A stretch of 21,410 nucleotides of DNA from a virus. The translations under genes were made by a program, and so were the position numbers. The stretch covers positions 932-22,341 of the IMG/VR virus record IMGVR_UViG_3300030328_004423. One strand, written 5' to 3'. The notes beneath the pieces are model-generated. The model was not told the origin of the DNA and ran no database searches. It worked only from the letters and a program-made list of their open reading frames with translations. Below, in pieces: positions 3,962 through 20,135 of the stretch (position 1 is its first letter; each line of letters starts with the position of its first letter).

Positions 3962-6395
3962 CTTTTAATGCCTCCATTTGGATATCTGCTACATTCTTTT
4001 CTCGTTCCATCTGTATTTTAGATGCATTCTTTTCTCGCTCTAATTGGAGTTCAGCTTCAAGTTTTGTTATTTTCGCCTGTAGATCTGCCTGAGCTTTTGC
4101 TGCTTCTATTTGTAAGTCTTGCTGGGCTTCAGCTTGTTTAATTTGGATTGAGGACTGTGCTTTAGCTTGATCTGCAGAGATTTGGGCTTGCGTCCTAGCT
4201 TTGAGTGCTTCAGTTTCGAGTTGGGCAAGTTGTTGTGCATATTGTAATGGGTTCTGTTGTTGACCTTGTTTCATTGCAGCAGTTAATGCTTCAATCTCTT
4301 TCATTTGAGGAGCTTGCTGTACAACCTGAGCAGCACGCTGACTAATCAAATTATCTAAATCAGCAGGAATATCTTTCGGTTGATAATCACTAGCTTTAAA
4401 ATCAGGAATTGGTGGCATCGGAACGCCAACTCCAGCTTCCATCCTAACCCTATATAATAACGCAACGTGTTCAGCGATATGGGCAATAAGAACAGGAAGC
4501 ATTCCTTTTGCTCCAGGATTTCCTGCAAGAGAAGGATCCTGAATAAACTGCATATGAACAGCAATATGAGAGTCGTGATCCTGATCTGGAAAAGCTTTAA
4601 TTGCTTTGCCAAACATTACTGACATATTCTCGTCTATTGGATCCATTCTTGGAGCTTCTTCAGGCTTCATAAGAATTTCGTCTATGTTTGGTATTCTTAT
4701 GGCTTCATACATACGCTTATATGCTTCGTACATATTATGCATATCAGGAGCTGATTGAGCCATTTGTAAAACAGCTTGTGCTTGAGCTATTCTCTGGGCA
4801 GTAGAAAAAATGTTGGGGTCACTGACTGGGAGAACGTCAATGCGATCATTAAAGTCAGCAGCAAAGACCTCAGAACTGCCTCCGATAGATGAAAATGTAA
4901 ACTGCTCAGGAAGGTTCTCAGCATTAAGAGAGGAAATTAGCTTGAACTCTTGACCTTGAGAATAATGCAACCTTTTGTGAATCGCTGAGAAAGCTTTGGA
5001 ACCTTGCTCAATTAGTGCGACTGTCGAGCCAACAGGTGCATTCGGGTTTACATCCCCAACATTTAAATCAGCAGTACTAGCGAATCGCTGACCTGCATCT
5101 ACAATAAAGCCTAATAAATTAAATAAAGATCCACTTGGCTCTTTAAAAGGCAAAGGCATTATAGCTTTATTAACATCGTCAACTGTTGCATCAAGATCAA
5201 CGAACTCTCCAGGATTAACCTGCATCTCGCCACCTGAAACTCTGCCTCTTAATTTAAAGCCACCTTGCATATTTGAAAATGCAGCTGAGTCTAATAAAGC
5301 TCGTAAGGATCCAGTTGCTGCTTTGCCCAATCCACCAATAAGATGATATAAGCCAAAACCATAAAAACCAAGTCCAGGAAGGAACTTATAACTAACGAAC
5401 CAATCTCTTCGTTTTTTCTTTTCATCATCTTCTTTCCAGTTACGACGAATGCTAACAACATGCTCATTATCATAATCTATGGTAACAACATAAGGTATTG
5501 CCACTTCAGCATCTTCATCTTCAAAAGATTCATAAACGTGCATCTCAAGAAGAGTTATCACTTCATCTTCTGCATCATCGGCATTCTGATCAACACCTTC
5601 AATATCGCCAATCGTATCTCCTGAAGGATCAAGATCGCCACCTTTATCTTTAGTTGGCAAATACCAACCTGCTTCAACATACCGATTATAATCGTTCTTT
5701 GGCATACGAATGACATGAGTATATCTTAAGGAGGTATTAAGATCTTTGCTTTCTGGTGCGACAACAAAGTCTTCAGCTTTAACAAACTGTGAACATTGCC
5801 TTTCTAAATTTGTATCCCACCAAACTTTTTTAAATGTTTGACCAACTAATGGTAAGTGAAATAACATCTGATCTAAGTCAGGAAAGTATTCAGGCATTTC
5901 CTGAGTGATCTGATAATTCATATATTCCCGAACTCTGCGAGCTTGTTCTTCTAGCTCTTCACTTGGGTCGCCAACAATAACTGCTTTAACAGGACCACCA
6001 GAAGGATAAAGCTCTGCGATTGCTTTAGCATTGAATTGGGTTGCTGCTTCAGAGATCAAAGGATGAACAACAGTTGAAAGACCACGAACAGCACGTTCTT
6101 CTTCAGACTCTTCCATGCCACCATCAGGATCTAAAGTTTTTAATCCTTTTTTGTATCTCTCTTCCCACTCAGAACGAGCTTCACGATCTGTATTATAAAA
6201 ACCTATTAAGTCTGATGCAGTTCTATTTAATTCTTTATCGGGCATGTCTTCTGCCAGATTTGCATCGAAATTGCTATCTTCTTCTTTTACTTCATCAAGC
6301 TCTGGGTCACCAATAAGAACATCATCACCAACTTCTTCAACTTGTAAATTATCAGAGGGAGCACCTTCAGCAAAAGGAATAGATGTTTCAGCCAT
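3954..6395 (-). CDS. Portal protein, 813 aa
   Basis: The portal ring forms the DNA channel at the capsid vertex and docks the terminase. Evidence is position directly after the large terminase gene (8-bp overlap), size, and segments of P22-type portals of marine podoviruses. These include an acidic N-terminus, then DLIGFYNTDREARSEWEERY (62-81), GLSTVVHPLISEAATQFNAK (105-124) and a QEMPEYFPDLDQMLFHLPLVGQTFKKVWW stretch (165-193, residues given in two parts). About residues 695-813 form a Gln/Ala/Lys/Glu-rich, probably coiled-coil tail containing ITKLEAELQLEREKNASKIQ. At 813 residues it is longer than P22 gp1 (725), and the helical tail may form an extended barrel. The family call is firm; the subfamily is from memory. 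Confidence 0.88.
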   Translation of the reverse strand: MAETSIPFAEGAPSDNLQVEEVGDDVLIGDPELDEVKEEDSNFDANLAEDMPDKELNRTASDLIGFYNTDREARSEWEERYKKGLKTLDPDGGMEESEEERAVRGLSTVVHPLISEAATQFNAKAIAELYPSGGPVKAVIVGDPSEELEEQARRVREYMNYQITQEMPEYFPDLDQMLFHLPLVGQTFKKVWWDTNLERQCSQFVKAEDFVVAPESKDLNTSLRYTHVIRMPKNDYNRYVEAGWYLPTKDKGGDLDPSGDTIGDIEGVDQNADDAEDEVITLLEMHVYESFEDEDAEVAIPYVVTIDYDNEHVVSIRRNWKEDDEKKKRRDWFVSYKFLPGLGFYGFGLYHLIGGLGKAATGSLRALLDSAAFSNMQGGFKLRGRVSGGEMQVNPGEFVDLDATVDDVNKAIMPLPFKEPSGSLFNLLGFIVDAGQRFASTADLNVGDVNPNAPVGSTVALIEQGSKAFSAIHKRLHYSQGQEFKLISSLNAENLPEQFTFSSIGGSSEVFAADFNDRIDVLPVSDPNIFSTAQRIAQAQAVLQMAQSAPDMHNMYEAYKRMYEAIRIPNIDEILMKPEEAPRMDPIDENMSVMFGKAIKAFPDQDHDSHIAVHMQFIQDPSLAGNPGAKGMLPVLIAHIAEHVALLYRVRMEAGVGVPMPPIPDFKASDYQPKDIPADLDNLISQRAAQVVQQAPQMKEIEALTAAMKQGQQQNPLQYAQQLAQLETEALKARTQAQISADQAKAQSSIQIKQAEAQQDLQIEAAKAQADLQAKITKLEAELQLEREKNASKIQMEREKNVADIQMEALKGE

Positions 6396-7884
6396 ATAAT
6401 GTTATCCTTTGTTTTTCTTGATAATCGTCTTCTTCATAATCTTCCGAATGAGTAACAAACCAACCTTTTCGTAATCTTAACCATGCCTGCGTACAAGTAT
6501 CAACTATGTCATCATTATCAGTTGCAGGAAATGCTGCACAGATATCTATTAAACTCTTAGCCCATTTTTTGTCAAAAGGAAAGTAAATTCTTCCATCTTC
6601 TAATAAAGCCGATGATGCATGGGCACGAGCTTCCTTGTCTCGATCAGGTAAATACTCAAGAACTGGGACTCCTGCCATGCGTAAATCTTGCAATAAAGAT
6701 TGGCCAGAAGCCTTCTTTTCTATTAAAACAGCATCAGGTTGCCAGTCTTGATATGCTTCTTGTGCGAGTTTTCTTAATTCAGGATATGTTACACGATCGT
6801 ACCACATCTCTAATACAATAGCACAAGTCATTCCTCTGTCTCTGAAAACTCCCCAAGTTGTTCGAGCAGAATAAGAAGTTTTTTCTTTCGTACTGAAAGC
6901 AGTATCCCAAGATTGGAGAACATACTCAATGTCTGGCAGATCATCTTTCTCCCATGGCACCCACCATTCAGCTTTTAATATCCCACCACCTTTGGGCATT
7001 GGTCTCTGCTGCAATTGACCTGCGGAGGCATAAGACCCAAGACTTTTCTCAAGACTGTCGAGAGTTTTAACATCAATCCTCTCTGGCCACAGCAAGTCAC
7101 CTTCTTTGGTTCTTGGGTCTGTGAAGCCAAGTCTTGATCTGGTTGGTGTTGGATGTCCGATCTCATATCGAGCAGGTAAGCATAAATGATCCCAATCATC
7201 GTATTCGTTCCTTAATATGTGTCCTGTTAAGTCTGTTTCGTGAACTCTTTGCATTATAATTATAAATGCTCCTGTCTTAGGATCGTTCAGTCGAGTTTGC
7301 ATTGCTTGATCCCACCATTCAAGAACACCTTCACGAACTGTTGAACTTTCAGCTTCCCGAACATTATGCGGATCATCAATAATAATTATATCACCACCTT
7401 CACCAGTCAACGCACCATCAACAGACGTTGCTATTCTCTGGCCAGTCTTATCGTTCTCAAATCTTTGTTTCTGGTTTTGATCAGAAGTCAATTGAAAAGT
7501 ATTACCAAAATGCTCTTTATACCAACGACTGTCAAGAAGCCTTCTACACTTAACCGAATCTCTTATGGAAAGAGAGCCAGCATAAGATGCATACAAGAAT
7601 TTTTTCTCTGGCTGTATGGTCCAAGTCCAAGCAGGAAGTGCAACTGCAACTGAGATAGATTTCATATGACGAGGAGGGATATTAATAATGAGCCTTTTGA
7701 TATCACCTTCAACGACAGCTTGCAAATGATCAGCTATTGCATCAATATGCCAATTATCATAAAAGTCTCGTCCAGGTTCAATCGTTCCCCAAGAGTTCCT
7801 GATGAACTCCCTCAACGATCTCCTCATCTTCTCTGCTCGAACTTCCGTCAGTGACAGCGTGCTCAAGAACTCGTTCAATTGCAT
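6388..7884 (-). CDS. terL: Terminase large subunit (ATPase and nuclease), 498 aa
   Basis: This is the DNA-packaging motor. ATPase part: a Walker A variant IPPRHMKS at residues 69-76, a form common in this family where Met replaces the usual Gly; Walker B IIIIDDPH at 166-173; and a likely coupling segment IIMQRVHETDLTG at 209-221. The RNase H-like nuclease part has SWDTAF with D327, LIEKKASG with E389, and TDNDDIVD with D458/D459. Length is typical. The ATG at 7884 has AGGAGAGG upstream, lies inside the end of the small-terminase-like gene (107-bp overlap), and its stop overlaps the portal start by 8 bp. All expected catalytic residues are present. Confidence 0.95.
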   Translation of the reverse strand: MQLNEFLSTLSLTEVRAEKMRRSLREFIRNSWGTIEPGRDFYDNWHIDAIADHLQAVVEGDIKRLIINIPPRHMKSISVAVALPAWTWTIQPEKKFLYASYAGSLSIRDSVKCRRLLDSRWYKEHFGNTFQLTSDQNQKQRFENDKTGQRIATSVDGALTGEGGDIIIIDDPHNVREAESSTVREGVLEWWDQAMQTRLNDPKTGAFIIIMQRVHETDLTGHILRNEYDDWDHLCLPARYEIGHPTPTRSRLGFTDPRTKEGDLLWPERIDVKTLDSLEKSLGSYASAGQLQQRPMPKGGGILKAEWWVPWEKDDLPDIEYVLQSWDTAFSTKEKTSYSARTTWGVFRDRGMTCAIVLEMWYDRVTYPELRKLAQEAYQDWQPDAVLIEKKASGQSLLQDLRMAGVPVLEYLPDRDKEARAHASSALLEDGRIYFPFDKKWAKSLIDICAAFPATDNDDIVDTCTQAWLRLRKGWFVTHSEDYEEDDYQEKQRITLYG

Positions 7885-8801: not shown

Positions 8802-8990
8802 TTATATCCTTTCTAAATCTTGGAGAGCTTTTTCATATTGCCCTCTCTTATAATCTTTTCCTGTTATTTTAGTCACTGCTGCAAGAATTTGCTTACCAGA
8901 CATTCTGGAATTTTTCATCCCAAGGGACATCAACTTTAGATGCCCTTTGAGAAAAACTGCTTGAACTTTTGGATCTGATGGATTTAGCAT
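8802..8990 (-). CDS. Small conserved-type phage protein, 62 aa
   Basis: The product begins MLNPSDPKVQAVFLKGHLKL and continues with GMKNSRMSGKQILAAVTKIT and YKRGQYEKALQDLE. From memory, the pattern 'MLNP.DPKV.AVFLKGHLK....GMKNS..SGK..L......TGK.YKRGQY..A..DL' recurs in phage small proteins of unknown role. It is helical, basic, cytoplasmic, and could contact nucleic acid. GGAGAG precedes the ATG, and the gene start overlaps the stop of the 109-aa gene by 7 bp. Confidence 0.75.
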   Translation of the reverse strand: MLNPSDPKVQAVFLKGHLKLMSLGMKNSRMSGKQILAAVTKITGKDYKRGQYEKALQDLERI

Positions 8991-9313
8991 TTAGCTCTCC
9001 ATAATTTATAACCTTCAGTTGTCTGGGGAAAGCCATCCCTTTTCAGCCACTGTCTAATGTGTAACAAAAGGTATCCTTTTGACTTCAAAATAGCTAATGG
9101 CGTTTCAGCATTGTCAAGTCGATCAAAATATTCTTCAACTGTGAAATTATCAATTAAGAATCTTCTGAAACTTGGGGCAGAAGTTTTCGCACCATATTTC
9201 AATCTGGCTACAAATTTTTCCCTACAACCATGCTCGCAAGGCTCGTAATAAGCTATAAAATTACCTTTATCGCCTTTGCTGATGGATAAATTATCTATTG
9301 TGAATTTTGTCAT
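8984..9313 (-). CDS. Hypothetical protein directly downstream of the ribozyme, 109 aa
   Basis: The product starts MTKFTIDNLSISKGDKGNFI, contains a small Cys pair in EPCEHGCREKF and a basic helical C-terminal half ending LWRAKC. I recognise no family. Its leader is notable: the hammerhead cleavage site lies 29 nt upstream of the ATG, and the Shine-Dalgarno AGAAAGGA is at 9327-9320. The stretch AGAAAGGAAATTAAATGAC is identical to that of the upstream 109-aa gene, so both genes use the same initiation cassette. After ribozyme cleavage this would be the first gene of the shortened messenger. Confidence 0.7.
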   Translation of the reverse strand: MTKFTIDNLSISKGDKGNFIAYYEPCEHGCREKFVARLKYGAKTSAPSFRRFLIDNFTVEEYFDRLDNAETPLAILKSKGYLLLHIRQWLKRDGFPQTTEGYKLWRAKC

Positions 9314-9332
9314 TTAATTTCCTTTCTAATTT

Positions 9333-9342
9333 TGCTTTCGCA
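9333..9342 (-). other. UGC-GAAA-GCA hairpin at the predicted new mRNA 5' end
   Basis: The ten bases immediately after the predicted cleavage site read UGCGAAAGCA, a 3-bp stem closed by a GNRA tetraloop. Its bases are those of the stem I 3' arm, so hairpin and intact ribozyme are mutually exclusive. After cleavage it could release the upstream product and shield the 5'-OH end. It ends five bases before the Shine-Dalgarno and so should not block initiation. Confidence 0.55.
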
Positions 9343-9391
9343 GACCCAAAGGTTTCGGGTGGGGAGCAACCCCACCACTCATCAGTGCGAA
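9337..9391 (-). ncRNA. Type I hammerhead self-cleaving ribozyme
   Basis: Read on the minus strand: stem I 5' arm UUCGCA (9391-9386); core CUGAUGA (9385-9379); stem II (9378-9357) with seven consecutive pairs GGUGGGG/CCCCACC, loop UUGCU, closing pair G9378-C9357 and one bulged U at 9377; GAA (9356-9354); stem III ACC/GGU with loop UUUG (9353-9344); C17 at 9343; then stem I 3' arm UGCGAA (9342-9337), fully complementary to UUCGCA. All conserved core nucleotides of the hammerhead family are present, including A15.1-U16.1 and a GUC cleavage triplet. Predicted cleavage is between 9343 and 9342. The open end is stem I, hence type I. It fills the gap between a stop codon (9395-9393) and the next gene's Shine-Dalgarno. 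Mildly unusual features are the 3-bp stem III and the bulge in stem II. Confidence 0.92.
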
Positions 9392-9392
9392 T

Positions 9393-9722
9393 CTAAGTCG
9401 TGTACCTTTCACCAGTAATTATATTTATCATTTCTACACCAGATCCCATTGCAGCTCTGGCTTCAAACCTTTGCTCATTAATTTCTTCCTGAGTTCTGTT
9501 TGCTTGGTTCTTTGTATACTCAGCGAAAAAGTCTGCTAAATACTCTTTATATGCTTTGTTAGTAGCTTCAGCAGTAATTTCGTTTATGTAACCTTTTTCA
9601 AGTAATTCTTTTACATTCTCTTTATCAAAAGGTCTAAATCCCTCACCTTTTAAACTAACACCCACTGCACCACACAAAATGCTGTATTCACCTTTAAGCC
9701 ATTTTTCCTCAATATATGTCAT
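9393..9722 (-). CDS. Hypothetical early protein, 109 aa, first gene of ribozyme operon
   Basis: The product starts MTYIEEKWLKGEYSILCGAV; its middle is helical (EYLADFFAEYTKNQANRTQE); its C-terminus reads RFEARAAMGSGVEMINIITG then ERYTT. From memory, the ending 'RFEARAA.G.GVE..N..TGE...T' recurs in small early phage proteins of unknown role. The start has AGAAAGGA at ideal spacing and a promoter-like sequence 29 bp upstream of the ATG. Its TAG (9395-9393) lies one base before stem I of the hammerhead, so ribosomes finishing this gene would cover part of the ribozyme. Confidence 0.72.
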   Translation of the reverse strand: MTYIEEKWLKGEYSILCGAVGVSLKGEGFRPFDKENVKELLEKGYINEITAEATNKAYKEYLADFFAEYTKNQANRTQEEINEQRFEARAAMGSGVEMINIITGERYTT

Positions 9723-9750
9723 TTAATTTCCTTTCTTAGTTAATATAAGT

Positions 9751-9779
9751 ATTCTATCTTATTTTTTCAGAGAAGTAAA
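9751..9779 (-). promoter_or_regulatory. Leftward promoter of the ribozyme operon (TTTACT-N17-TAGAAT)
   Basis: On the minus strand TTTACT (9779-9774) and TAGAAT (9756-9751) are separated by 17 bp. The expected start near 9744 gives a leader of about 22 nt before the ATG at 9722. The box, the A-rich spacer and the distance to the gene match three sites on the other strand (10098, 16005 and 18719), which makes chance unlikely. Confidence 0.6.
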
Positions 9780-9827
9780 GGATTATTTTAACAAAATATC
9801 CCTTTAAAAACAATGACTTAAAAAAAA

Positions 9828-10083
9828 GTTACCAGTGTTCGGTTTCGGTTACCGATGGTTTCGTTCTTAGGTAACGTGTGCAACTAATTGTAATCAAATA
9901 ATAAAACACCATTCGTTACCGACGTTACCACAAATTCGCTTTTTTTTAAAAAATATTTTTAACACCCAAATTTTATTTATATATATAATAGTGGTAAACC
10001 AAGGACGTATCTGAAAACAAATGAAGGTCGGTAACGCTGGTTCTCTGGTTACTTCTTTGTTATAATTAAGAAAGGTCGGTAAC
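9828..10083. repeat. Array of seven GGTAAC/GTTACC motifs
   Basis: Exact cores are at 9828-9833, 9848-9853, 9870-9875, 9915-9920, 9924-9929, 10030-10035 and 10078-10083. The second lies in CGGTTACCG. The fourth and fifth are 9 bp apart, separated by GAC. The sixth and seventh share AAGGTCGGTAAC, 48 bp apart. A further GGTTAC lies at 10047-10052. Left of the A+T tract most copies read GTTACC, right of it GGTAAC, so the array is roughly mirror-symmetric. About 0.1 copy would be expected by chance in this length. Confidence 0.75.
10058..10066 (+). promoter_or_regulatory. Extended -10 promoter candidate for rightward genes
   Basis: TGTTATAAT at 10058-10066 is a perfect extended -10 (TGnTATAAT). 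The expected start near 10073 would fall on the GGTAAC motif at 10078-10083, with other copies at 10030 and a GGTTAC at 10047. A protein bound to the array would therefore cover this promoter. No -35 match is evident, as is usual for extended -10 promoters. Confidence 0.45.
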
Positions 10084-10097
10084 TGCTAAAAAAAATA

Positions 10098-10126
10098 TTT
10101 ACTTTTAAATTTAAAAAAAGTAAGGT
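10098..10126 (+). promoter_or_regulatory. Rightward promoter candidate (TTTACT-N17-TAAGGT)
   Basis: TTTACT at 10098-10103 is followed by a 17-bp A+T spacer and TAAGGT at 10121-10126, 35 bp before the GTG start of the first rightward gene. The -35 box, spacer composition and geometry match the promoters at 9779, 16005 and 18719, but the -10 hexamer is weaker than theirs. Confidence 0.4.
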
Positions 10127-10155
10127 AAAGTTAATTGTTTAGAAAGGAAATGAAC

Positions 10156-16904: not shown

Positions 16905-17836
16905 AAATATACGGAGCAGGTCTCGCTGGGTTATTGGCAGGAAATATGTTAAGAGGTTTTGAGCCCTCTGTTCATGAAGCCCAAAAGCAATTGCCAAATA
17001 ATCATGGAGCCTTGCTCCGATTTAGAACTGATAAAGTTGGAACAGCATGTGCCATACCTTTTAAAAAAGTTCACGTTCAGAAAGCTATTAGTTATGAAGG
17101 TAAAATTATCACTGAGCCCAATTTGTTTTTAAGTAATTTATATTCCCAGAAAGTTACAGGATCAATATTAAGTAGATCCATTAACAATCTTGATCCTGTT
17201 GATAGATACATATCTCCTTGGGAATTAATTAATATTATGGCAAAAAATTGTAATATAAAATATAATTCAAAATTAACATTATCAGAAGTTCTTGCAATTA
17301 ATCGCCCGATTATATCAACAATCCCAATGCCAGCATTAATGGATATTGTTAAGTGGCCAGACAAGCCAGAGTTTCCATCTCAAAAAATATGGACGCAAAA
17401 AGCAAAAATTGTAACTCCTGAATGCAGAGTTAATCAGACCATATATTACCCAGACCCAATGCTTCCATATTATAGAATATCTTTAGTCGGGGATACTGTT
17501 ATATCAGAATTTACAAAAAAGCCAGAGACGGATGTTGGTCCTCATGTAATGGGGGTTTTAAAAGATGATTTTGGAATCCAAACATATAAGCTTATCCACA
17601 TGACACAGTCTGAGCAATACTTTGGAAAAATAAAACCAATTGATGAAGATTTAAGAAAACAATTTGTTTTCGAAATGACAAGCAAATACGGAATATATTC
17701 GCTGGGTCGTTTTGCAACTTGGCGTCAAATTTTACTTGACGATGTTGCTGATGATATACAGCATATAGAAAGATTCATTCGGTCAAATTCTAACTACAGC
17801 CGATTGATGCACTCTCAGAAAGGAGAAAACCAATGA
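16901..17836 (+). CDS. FAD-binding oxidoreductase-like protein, 311 aa
   Basis: The N-terminus MKIYGAGLAGLLAGNMLRGF is a Rossmann dinucleotide-binding fold with G5-x-G7-xx-G10, and E26 placed to hold the ribose. Later segments are ALLRFRTDKVGTACAIPFKK and YGIYSLGRFATWRQILLDDV. From memory, this protein recurs beside thyX in phages, which suggests it supplies reduced flavin or otherwise serves thymidylate synthesis. That link is inference. The substrate-binding part shows no motif I can assign. The ATG at 16901 overlaps the previous stop as ATGA; a TTG at 16886 is in frame but has no Shine-Dalgarno. The stop overlaps thyX by 4 bp, so the two are coupled. Confidence 0.78.
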   Translation: MKIYGAGLAGLLAGNMLRGFEPSVHEAQKQLPNNHGALLRFRTDKVGTACAIPFKKVHVQKAISYEGKIITEPNLFLSNLYSQKVTGSILSRSINNLDPVDRYISPWELINIMAKNCNIKYNSKLTLSEVLAINRPIISTIPMPALMDIVKWPDKPEFPSQKIWTQKAKIVTPECRVNQTIYYPDPMLPYYRISLVGDTVISEFTKKPETDVGPHVMGVLKDDFGIQTYKLIHMTQSEQYFGKIKPIDEDLRKQFVFEMTSKYGIYSLGRFATWRQILLDDVADDIQHIERFIRSNSNYSRLMHSQKGENQ

Positions 17837-18480
17837 AAGTGAAATTAGTTAGTTATACAAGCGACGCAGTAAACCTTTTACTGTTCACAAAAAATACTCG
17901 TCTTATGAATGATGAAGATGCTTATGATAAAATATCCCAGTGGGATGAAGATAAAAAGCAAGCAGAACTCGATTACATGCTTAATACGATAAGGTCATCT
18001 TGGGAATTTATAGACTATACTTTTGATGTAAGAGAAGTTACAAGAGGATTTACACATCAGTTCGTCAGGACTCGTCAGGGTTCATATGCCCAACAGTCTC
18101 AGAGAACTGTTGATATGCAAGGTTTCGGATATTATACTCCTAATAGAATATACAAAGACGAAACTGCGAATACGATATATGATGATATTATGGAAAAAAT
18201 AAACGAAAAATATCAAGAGCTGAGATCTTTAGGAATTCCTGCAGAAGACGCAAGAGGGATATTGCCTACTAATATTCACACAAATATTATAGCAAAATTT
18301 AATTTAAGGACTCTAAGTGAGATGGCCAAGTCTCGTTTGTCTCCGAGAGCTCAAGGTGAATATCAGGAAGTATTTAAATTAATGGTCAGAGAAGTGGTTA
18401 ATGTTCATCCTTGGGCAGAAGCATTTCTGACACCAACAGAATGGGCTGCACCATCTATGGCAAAGCCATTAAATAAATAG
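17833..18480 (+). CDS. thyX: Flavin-dependent thymidylate synthase ThyX, 215 aa
   Basis: ThyX converts dUMP to dTMP using methylene-tetrahydrofolate, FAD and NADPH. The signature R-x-R-x7-S is present as RTRQGSYAQQS at residues 79-89, in the phage-type variant where the central His of RHR is Thr. The C-terminal part reads DARGILPTNIHTNIIAKFNL, then RTLSEMAKSRLSPRAQGEYQ, matching the dUMP-binding and folate-binding end of the family. Length is normal. AGAAAGGA lies at 17817-17824, 8 bases before the ATG. It follows the FAD-binding protein with a 4-bp overlap. No thyA is seen in the window. Confidence 0.93.
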   Translation: MKVKLVSYTSDAVNLLLFTKNTRLMNDEDAYDKISQWDEDKKQAELDYMLNTIRSSWEFIDYTFDVREVTRGFTHQFVRTRQGSYAQQSQRTVDMQGFGYYTPNRIYKDETANTIYDDIMEKINEKYQELRSLGIPAEDARGILPTNIHTNIIAKFNLRTLSEMAKSRLSPRAQGEYQEVFKLMVREVVNVHPWAEAFLTPTEWAAPSMAKPLNK

Positions 18481-19676: not shown

Positions 19677-19849
19677 TGAAAATAAAAATCAGGGGAAATG
19701 ATATCGAACTTAATGACCAGAAAATAGGAAGGTTGTTCGACATAAATACTTTTCAAAAGCAAGACCTAGAAGAGCTTTTTGATAAAGCCAACAATTATGA
19801 AGACGATGTCGAGCAAGCATTCCAAGATGGGAAAACAGATAATGAATAA
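19676..19849 (+). CDS. Small acidic hypothetical protein, 57 aa
   Basis: The ATG at 19676 overlaps the previous stop (TAATG) and the frame ends at TAA 19847-19849. The product begins MKIKIRGNDIELNDQKIGRL and continues acidic and helical (QDLEELFDKANNYEDDVEQA). No motif is recognised. Its end overlaps the next ATG by 8 bp, so the gene bridges two translated frames, which supports it being real. Confidence 0.62.
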   Translation: MKIKIRGNDIELNDQKIGRLFDINTFQKQDLEELFDKANNYEDDVEQAFQDGKTDNE

Positions 19850-20135
19850 AGATGCAGCAAAGATCTTAGAAGAGATGGCAGAAACTTTTCGGGAACGCAA
19901 TAAAGTCTATGGTGACAACTATAAAACAGTTGGTGAAGTTATGGTTGCATTATTCCCTAAAGGAGTTCAATTAAAAACTGTTGACGATTATAATATCTGG
20001 CATCTGTTTGAGCTTATGATTGTTAAAATTACAAGGTTCGCTAATAGCGATCTTAATCACAAAGATTCAATTCACGATGCAGCAGTCTATGCAGCAATGG
20101 TTGAGTCATTAATAAAAGGAGTTAACGATGAGTAA
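19842..20135 (+). CDS. DUF6378/DUF1599-like phage protein, 97 aa
   Basis: From ATG 19842 the product reads MNKDAAKILEEMAETFRERN, then KVYGDNYKTVGEVMVALFP, WHLFELMIVKITRFANSDLN and HKDSIHDAAVYAAMVESLI. The order 'ER...YGD...', a helix with 'K..R', and 'DS..D.A.YA.M' matches small all-helical proteins related to DUF6378 or DUF1599, which I associate with phage nucleotide metabolism; the exact activity is unknown. The frame opens at 19779, but the first 21 codons overlap the previous gene and show no features, so I chose the internal ATG. It shares 8 bp with the dehydrogenase gene. Confidence 0.68.
   Translation: MNKDAAKILEEMAETFRERNKVYGDNYKTVGEVMVALFPKGVQLKTVDDYNIWHLFELMIVKITRFANSDLNHKDSIHDAAVYAAMVESLIKGVNDE

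Follow-up and report, generated by a model that had tools for sequence, protein, structure and literature searches.

The locus examined here raises two linked questions: whether a short segment between two leftward genes of a marine phage fragment encodes a self-cleaving RNA and, if so, what such an RNA might do for the virus. The segment lies in the window, by which we mean the whole stretch of 21,410 nucleotides that was analysed, taken from a viral fragment of 22,341 bases (IMG/VR record IMGVR_UViG_3300030328_004423).

Elements and fold of the ribozyme

Read directly, the minus strand from 9391 to 9337 consists of UUCGCA, CUGAUGA, G(U)GGUGGGG, UUGCU, CCCCACC, C, GAAA, CC, UUUG, GG, GUC and UGCGAA, in that order. 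The elements assigned to it are listed below with their basis; A3 denotes an alignment of 26 diverse members of the ribozyme family and R1 a model of that family.

9337..9391, minus strand: predicted type I hammerhead ribozyme, from one arm of stem I to the other (direct reading, centroid fold, family model R1)
9386..9391, minus strand: stem I, 5' arm UUCGCA, pairing with UGCGAA at 9342-9337 (reading, fold, covariation)
9379..9385, minus strand: core CUGAUGA, C3 to A9 (reading; conservation in A3)
Within 9357..9378, minus strand: stem II, 9376-9370 with 9364-9358, GGUGGGG/CCCCACC, 7 pairs (reading, fold, covariation)
9378 and 9357, minus strand: closing pair of stem II, G9378-C9357, with 9378 as G10.1, and the bulged U9377 (reading, fold)
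9369-9365, minus strand: loop II, UUGCU (reading, fold)
9354..9356, minus strand: core GAA, that is G12, A13 and A14 (reading; conservation in A3)
9344..9353, minus strand: stem III of 3 bp, A9353-U9344 (A15.1-U16.1), C9352-G9345 and C9351-G9346, with loop UUUG (reading, fold)
9342..9343, minus strand: predicted cleavage site, C17 (9343) / U1.1 (9342) (position in the hammerhead consensus)
9332..9336, minus strand: AGCAA, putative pseudoknot partner of loop II (covariation)

All core positions can be assigned, with CUGANGA, GAAA and UH in the right order around three helices, with an open stem I and with loops capping stems II and III. The same three-way junction is the unconstrained RNA centroid fold of the hammerhead region (z = -2.5), and model R1 scores 83.6 bits at 9337..9391, its sole match in the window, which itself belongs to the training set of the model. 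A descriptor search returned one such element in the window; 400 windows simulated with a Markov model gave five, or about 0.01 each, and 3 Mb of related sequence, reversed, gave no hammerhead parse. The sequence evidence that the window element is a type I hammerhead ribozyme is very strong. The preliminary description of this DNA had proposed a complete minus-strand consensus at 9337-9391, including the 6-bp stem I UUCGCA/UGCGAA, the GUC triplet and a cut after 9343, and both reading and centroid fold place every element that it named where it had put it.

Covariation in related hammerheads

Several IMG/VR contigs with a related terminase carry the same ribozyme upstream of that gene, and pattern scans of IMG/VR brought to light about 60 distinct hammerheads sharing one architecture. 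In A3, 95.4% of cells are standard pairs and 14 of the 21 pairs show changes on both sides; the covariation value is 0.533 versus 0.148 in shuffles, with 0 of 500 shuffles reaching the observed value, and it collapses when pairing partners are shifted by one base. Two-sided changes occur in all seven pairs of stem II, where 100% of cells are paired, in four of the six pairs of stem I as compensating changes, and in none of the pairs of stem III among the 26 members. The CUGAUGA core is invariant apart from one U-to-C change at the variable position N7. An invariant core surrounded by stems that vary with compensating changes bears out the type I identity proposed earlier, and the conservation of stems I and II in related phages, which the preliminary description had named as a point on which its reading could fail, was thereby upheld.

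Members of A3 were all chosen by stem-based parsing, and some were found with a pattern in which the AGCAA tail was fixed; because of this selection, two further tests were added, one of the 3' half and one of the pseudoknot that is unbiased with respect to the tail. In the first, a pattern covering the 3' half only (GAAACC-loop-GGTCT..GA.AGCAA) was found at 51 viral places, and CTGANGA (CUGANGA in the RNA) stands correctly spaced upstream in 50 of these. In bacterial and archaeal genomes, 257 Gb in all, the same pattern occurs at 21 places, and the hammerhead 5' half is absent from every one; these matches are ruled out as hammerheads and attributed to chance. Taken as comparative sequence evidence, these results are decisive for the predicted window hammerhead.

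The element probably extends 5 nt further in the 3' direction than first described. Loop II (UUGCU, 9369-9365) is complementary to AGCAA at 9336-9332, directly 3' of stem I, and the two strands change jointly in relatives, as UAGUU/AACUA, UGGUU/AACCA and UGAUU/AAUCA, with two-sided changes in three of the five pairs in A3. In the tail-unbiased test, comprising 33 hammerheads from scans made without regard to the tail, 4.79 of the 5 pairs were Watson-Crick versus 3.68 after permutation, and 0 of 10000 permutations reached as high a value. It is this covariation that carries the pseudoknot, since three of five chance parses, examined as single sequences, also show four complementary bases when G-U is allowed. 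Covariation thus points to a loop II-tail pseudoknot as the tertiary contact between the stem I and stem II regions. Perreault et al. (2011; PMC3088659) describe such pseudoknots for each of the three hammerhead types; in type II, loop I pairs with the 3' tail.

The 3-bp stem III and the bulged U in stem II, both of which had been flagged as possible deviations from the consensus, are indeed present, but neither is a deviation within the family: a short stem III is normal, its loops in relatives being GAAA, GCAA, UCU and others, and the foot of stem II contains one or two additional bases in almost every member. In most of them the extra base is a U between A9 and G10.1 (CUGAUGA-U-G), whereas U9377 of the window follows G10.1 as a bulge, one position further on.

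Rfam and other database searches

Rfam 15 reported no match in the window at gathering scores. For the 171-base hammerhead region the best matches were RF03152 (RAGATH-1; 18.7 bits versus a gathering score of 56.3) and RF00008 (Hammerhead_3; 17.6 versus 48.5); membership in RAGATH-1 was rejected on this score and on the upstream helix of that class, which is unmatched here. The check suggested at the outset, a search with the type I model RF00163 (gathering 34 bits), likewise gave no match in the window, and this model was also silent in every control genome, which left it without a positive control. At gathering scores the same library reported none of 20 loci of the marine phage family (the window and 19 others) and none of 10 other phage loci with hammerhead-like motifs. 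The missing match therefore says little about the window hammerhead and does not count as evidence against it. That it was chance resemblance or an inactive relic, a reading with which the silence of Rfam agrees, is scarcely credible: the family-wide covariation already refutes chance resemblance, and the rarity of parses in simulated windows and the difference between 50 of 51 viral and 0 of 21 cellular places weigh in the same direction.

Current Rfam models thus pass over a clear family of phage hammerheads. Taken as a whole, this family appears to lack annotation in Rfam; it is widespread in ocean phages and apparently uncatalogued. No DNA match to the window junction or to the ribozyme was found among 50,697 isolated-phage records, and a literature search, which left out most subscription journals, found no paper on the marine phage family.

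Further RNA motifs were observed along the way. Eight loci (L222, L224, L250, L297, L302, L278, L258 and L268) carry type I hammerhead-like phage motifs that lack the layout with a loop II-tail pseudoknot and are also unseen by Rfam at gathering scores. A second candidate set on viral contigs (L225, L246, L259, L286 and L301) has CTGATGA followed by AGCACCUC...GGGGUGC and AGAAACC; it has CTGATGA-A and another base ahead of GAAA, and was dropped by the stricter parser. The viral contig L299 carries a GOLLD RNA beside a tRNA gene cluster (5724-6146, minus strand).

Gene junction and genome setting

The features that surround the ribozyme are as follows.

9393..9722, minus strand: upstream gene, 109 aa, no family match; one base separates its UAG stop (9395-9393) from stem I
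9320..9327, minus strand: Shine-Dalgarno region AGAAAGGA preceding the downstream gene, some 16 nt past the predicted cut (reading; layout in relatives)
8984..9313, minus strand: downstream gene, 109 aa, phrog_22119 (function not known); start codon 29 nt past the predicted cut
6388..7884, minus strand: terminase large subunit, phrog_38, 3.2e-94, in the same leftward row, further downstream (profile match)

The ribozyme thus sits between the stop codon of the upstream gene and the Shine-Dalgarno sequence of the downstream gene. The leftward row includes the terminase large subunit and the portal, the rightward row primase and helicase, and the hammerhead lies on the packaging side, upstream of the DNA-packaging genes. 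What had been called a small early operon is accordingly a packaging operon. The terminase large subunit is 80% identical to those of the Roseobacter phages CRP-901 and CRP-902, the nearest isolates, and has 528 related stretches in IMG/VR. Of 13 large, whole-searched records of the terminase or neighbour-gene group, nine, including CRP-901 and CRP-902, lack the hammerhead.

Other features of the window were observed as well. The divergent region of about 400 bases between the two gene rows (9723-10134) is likely a promoter region, its sigma70-like matches being weak. The rightward row includes a short-chain dehydrogenase/FabG-like gene (phrog_3142, PF00106; 20128-20793, plus strand), and a ThyX-type thymidylate synthase lies at 17833-18480. 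A stand-alone PNKP-type HAD phosphatase domain (PF25109; 19218-19676, plus strand), found in 8 of 30 records tested, is followed by a fragment annotated as polynucleotide kinase (phrog_4889; 19779-20135).

The layout of the window junction is shared by the family. A start codon follows in 68 of 69 cases, at a median of 29 nt past the predicted cut, 58 of the 68 relatives have a Shine-Dalgarno sequence in the same position, and the upstream stop codon in most cases ends 5-9 nt ahead of CUGA. The context that had at first been thought uncommon is not so, since intergenic hammerheads of phages have been described before (PMC3088659) and this exact arrangement recurs in dozens of contigs. The genes on either side are diverse, falling into 40 upstream and 44 downstream clusters that are unrelated, which implies that the hammerhead is not tied to one gene. 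Each record carries one or two copies, the window one, and single genes are enclosed by two hammerheads in L292, L280, L293 and L352. In L293 and L352 (also L303) an ardC homologue (ArdcN and zincin/MPTase-PolyVal domain) has one hammerhead directly upstream and another directly downstream.

The same or nearly the same hammerhead occurs between unrelated gene pairs, its stem II sequence is identical in many contigs, and it is present at some homologous junctions and absent from others. All three observations would also suit a mobile or recombinational linker, in which stop codon, hammerhead and Shine-Dalgarno sequence form a conserved DNA junction for the swapping of phage modules and the ribozyme is carried along. 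We regard this as decidedly improbable, because the compensating changes preserve RNA pairing and not DNA identity, and divergent copies have their structure in common and little of their sequence.

Homologous junctions without a hammerhead

Junctions before homologues of the 8984-9313 gene differ in content: a hammerhead is present in the window virus and in L002 and L088, a plain hairpin in L082, L085 and L086, a promoter-like site in L081 and L084, and nothing in L083. Across all downstream-gene families, an automated and approximate classification of 134 distinct junctions gave 64 with a hammerhead, 37 short or overlapping, 14 with a hairpin, 5 promoter-like and 14 other. Since its presence is patchy and short or overlapping junctions are common among the homologous ones, the hammerhead is dispensable, which counts against the role proposed below.

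Plain GC hairpins without the core fill the same slot, with TGGGGGAGAAATCCCCCA in L082/L086 and L083/L087 and GGGGAGCTTCGGCTCCCC in L008/L030-L036. These hairpins favour the chief rival to a hammerhead that cuts between cistrons, namely that the selected part is a GC-rich intercistronic hairpin which protects the 3' end of the upstream message or attenuates it, the hammerhead core being one version and cleavage secondary. This reading is unlikely: a mere hairpin would not need the core, yet CUGANGA...GAAA...UC is kept while stems and loops vary freely, and the pseudoknot and stem I covary as well. As an observation in its own right, GC-rich hairpins without a U-run, some with UUCG loops, lie between stop codon and Shine-Dalgarno sequence in L082, L086, L083, L087, L008, L012, L030-L036, L058, L064, L065 and L027.

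Proposed role

The element is probably a type I hammerhead able to cleave itself, kept in the active conformation by the pseudoknot, that severs the leftward transcript of the phage between two cistrons, and cistron separation is the most likely role of the window hammerhead. Transcription would pass the 109-aa gene at 9393-9722, and the ribozyme would fold right after its stop codon, with the contact between loop II and the 3' tail holding it in the active fold. Cleavage between 9343 and 9342 would leave the upstream message with the GC-rich stem II hairpin at its end and a 2',3'-cyclic phosphate. The downstream message, leading towards terminase and portal, would begin 29 nt ahead of the AUG, carrying a 5'-hydroxyl, and its Shine-Dalgarno sequence would be unpaired. 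Effects on message stability or translation may follow. Clustered prophage hammerheads cleave in vitro and in vivo, and a role in transcript processing has been proposed for them (Perreault et al., 2011; PMC3088659); the position expected of such processing hammerheads, between co-directional phage genes without fixed identity and sometimes on both sides of one gene, is the one found here.

Two additional candidates were considered and rejected. A translational switch by release of the Shine-Dalgarno sequence is weakly supported, as there is no clear block before cleavage and the modelled change is small (median openness slightly higher after the cut, 0.64 -> 0.73). The PNKP-type phosphatase, as a partner in RNA end healing, shows no enrichment, being present in 4 of 20 hammerhead carriers versus 4 of 10 non-carriers.

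The site just upstream of a start codon resembles that of the hammerhead of haloviruses HF1/HF2, which lies 13 nt before a helicase gene and has been discussed as salt-responsive (PMC3088659). That the hammerhead is riboswitch-like, tuned by a ligand or salt and exerting conditional control over the downstream gene, is nevertheless very improbable here: an aptamer domain or extra conserved nucleotides are absent, the downstream genes have no function in common, and the consensus core is intact, unlike that of the HF1/HF2 hammerhead (HHphage).

Beyond the window, we put forward tentatively, at slightly under an even chance, that pseudoknotted type I hammerheads with the extra core-side U are interchangeable cistron separators across marine phages, swapped with promoters, plain hairpins and tight overlaps at the same junction, and that their self-cleavage would yield messages for single genes whose 5'-hydroxyl ends fall precisely at the ribosome binding site. 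The fixed junction position and natural pairs of presence and absence in this family make cistron separation, a role proposed for phage hammerheads in 2011, directly testable.

Comparison with known systems

The class is known, and the single traits of this hammerhead all have precedent: hammerheads in phages, pseudoknots, an extra core base and the cutting of phage transcripts. With the type I hammerheads of RF00163 (clan CL00010) the family shares the core, the order of the helices, the open stem I and the UH/GUC cleavage triplet; it differs in its stem I of 5-6 bp without an internal loop and in its predicted tertiary contact, a Watson-Crick pseudoknot to the 3' tail. RAGATH-1 (RF03152) provides the best, though sub-threshold, Rfam match, but its upstream extra helix and long stem III are absent here.

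The extra base recalls the CChMVd (+) hammerhead, which has an unpaired A10 whose replacement by U raised trans-cleavage 3-4 fold, according to the summary given in a review (De la Pena and Flores, 2001, in PMC3705267). In both cases an extra nucleotide is unpaired between A9 and G10.1, and most members of the marine family have exactly U there; host and permutation are unrelated, and the extra U of the window sits after G10.1.

The hammerheads of PaP3, Bcep176, HF1/HF2 (HHphage) and the A. tumefaciens ardA triplet (Perreault et al., 2011; PMC3088659) are similar in lying in phage intergenic regions, in flanking single genes of varying identity and in having pseudoknots. The ardC gene between two hammerheads recalls ardA adjoining hammerheads in A. 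tumefaciens and Legionella, ardA being the gene beside hammerheads in that set and ardC in the marine one. Unlike that set, the hammerheads described here form one coherent marine phage family with a fixed layout of stop codon, ribozyme and Shine-Dalgarno sequence.
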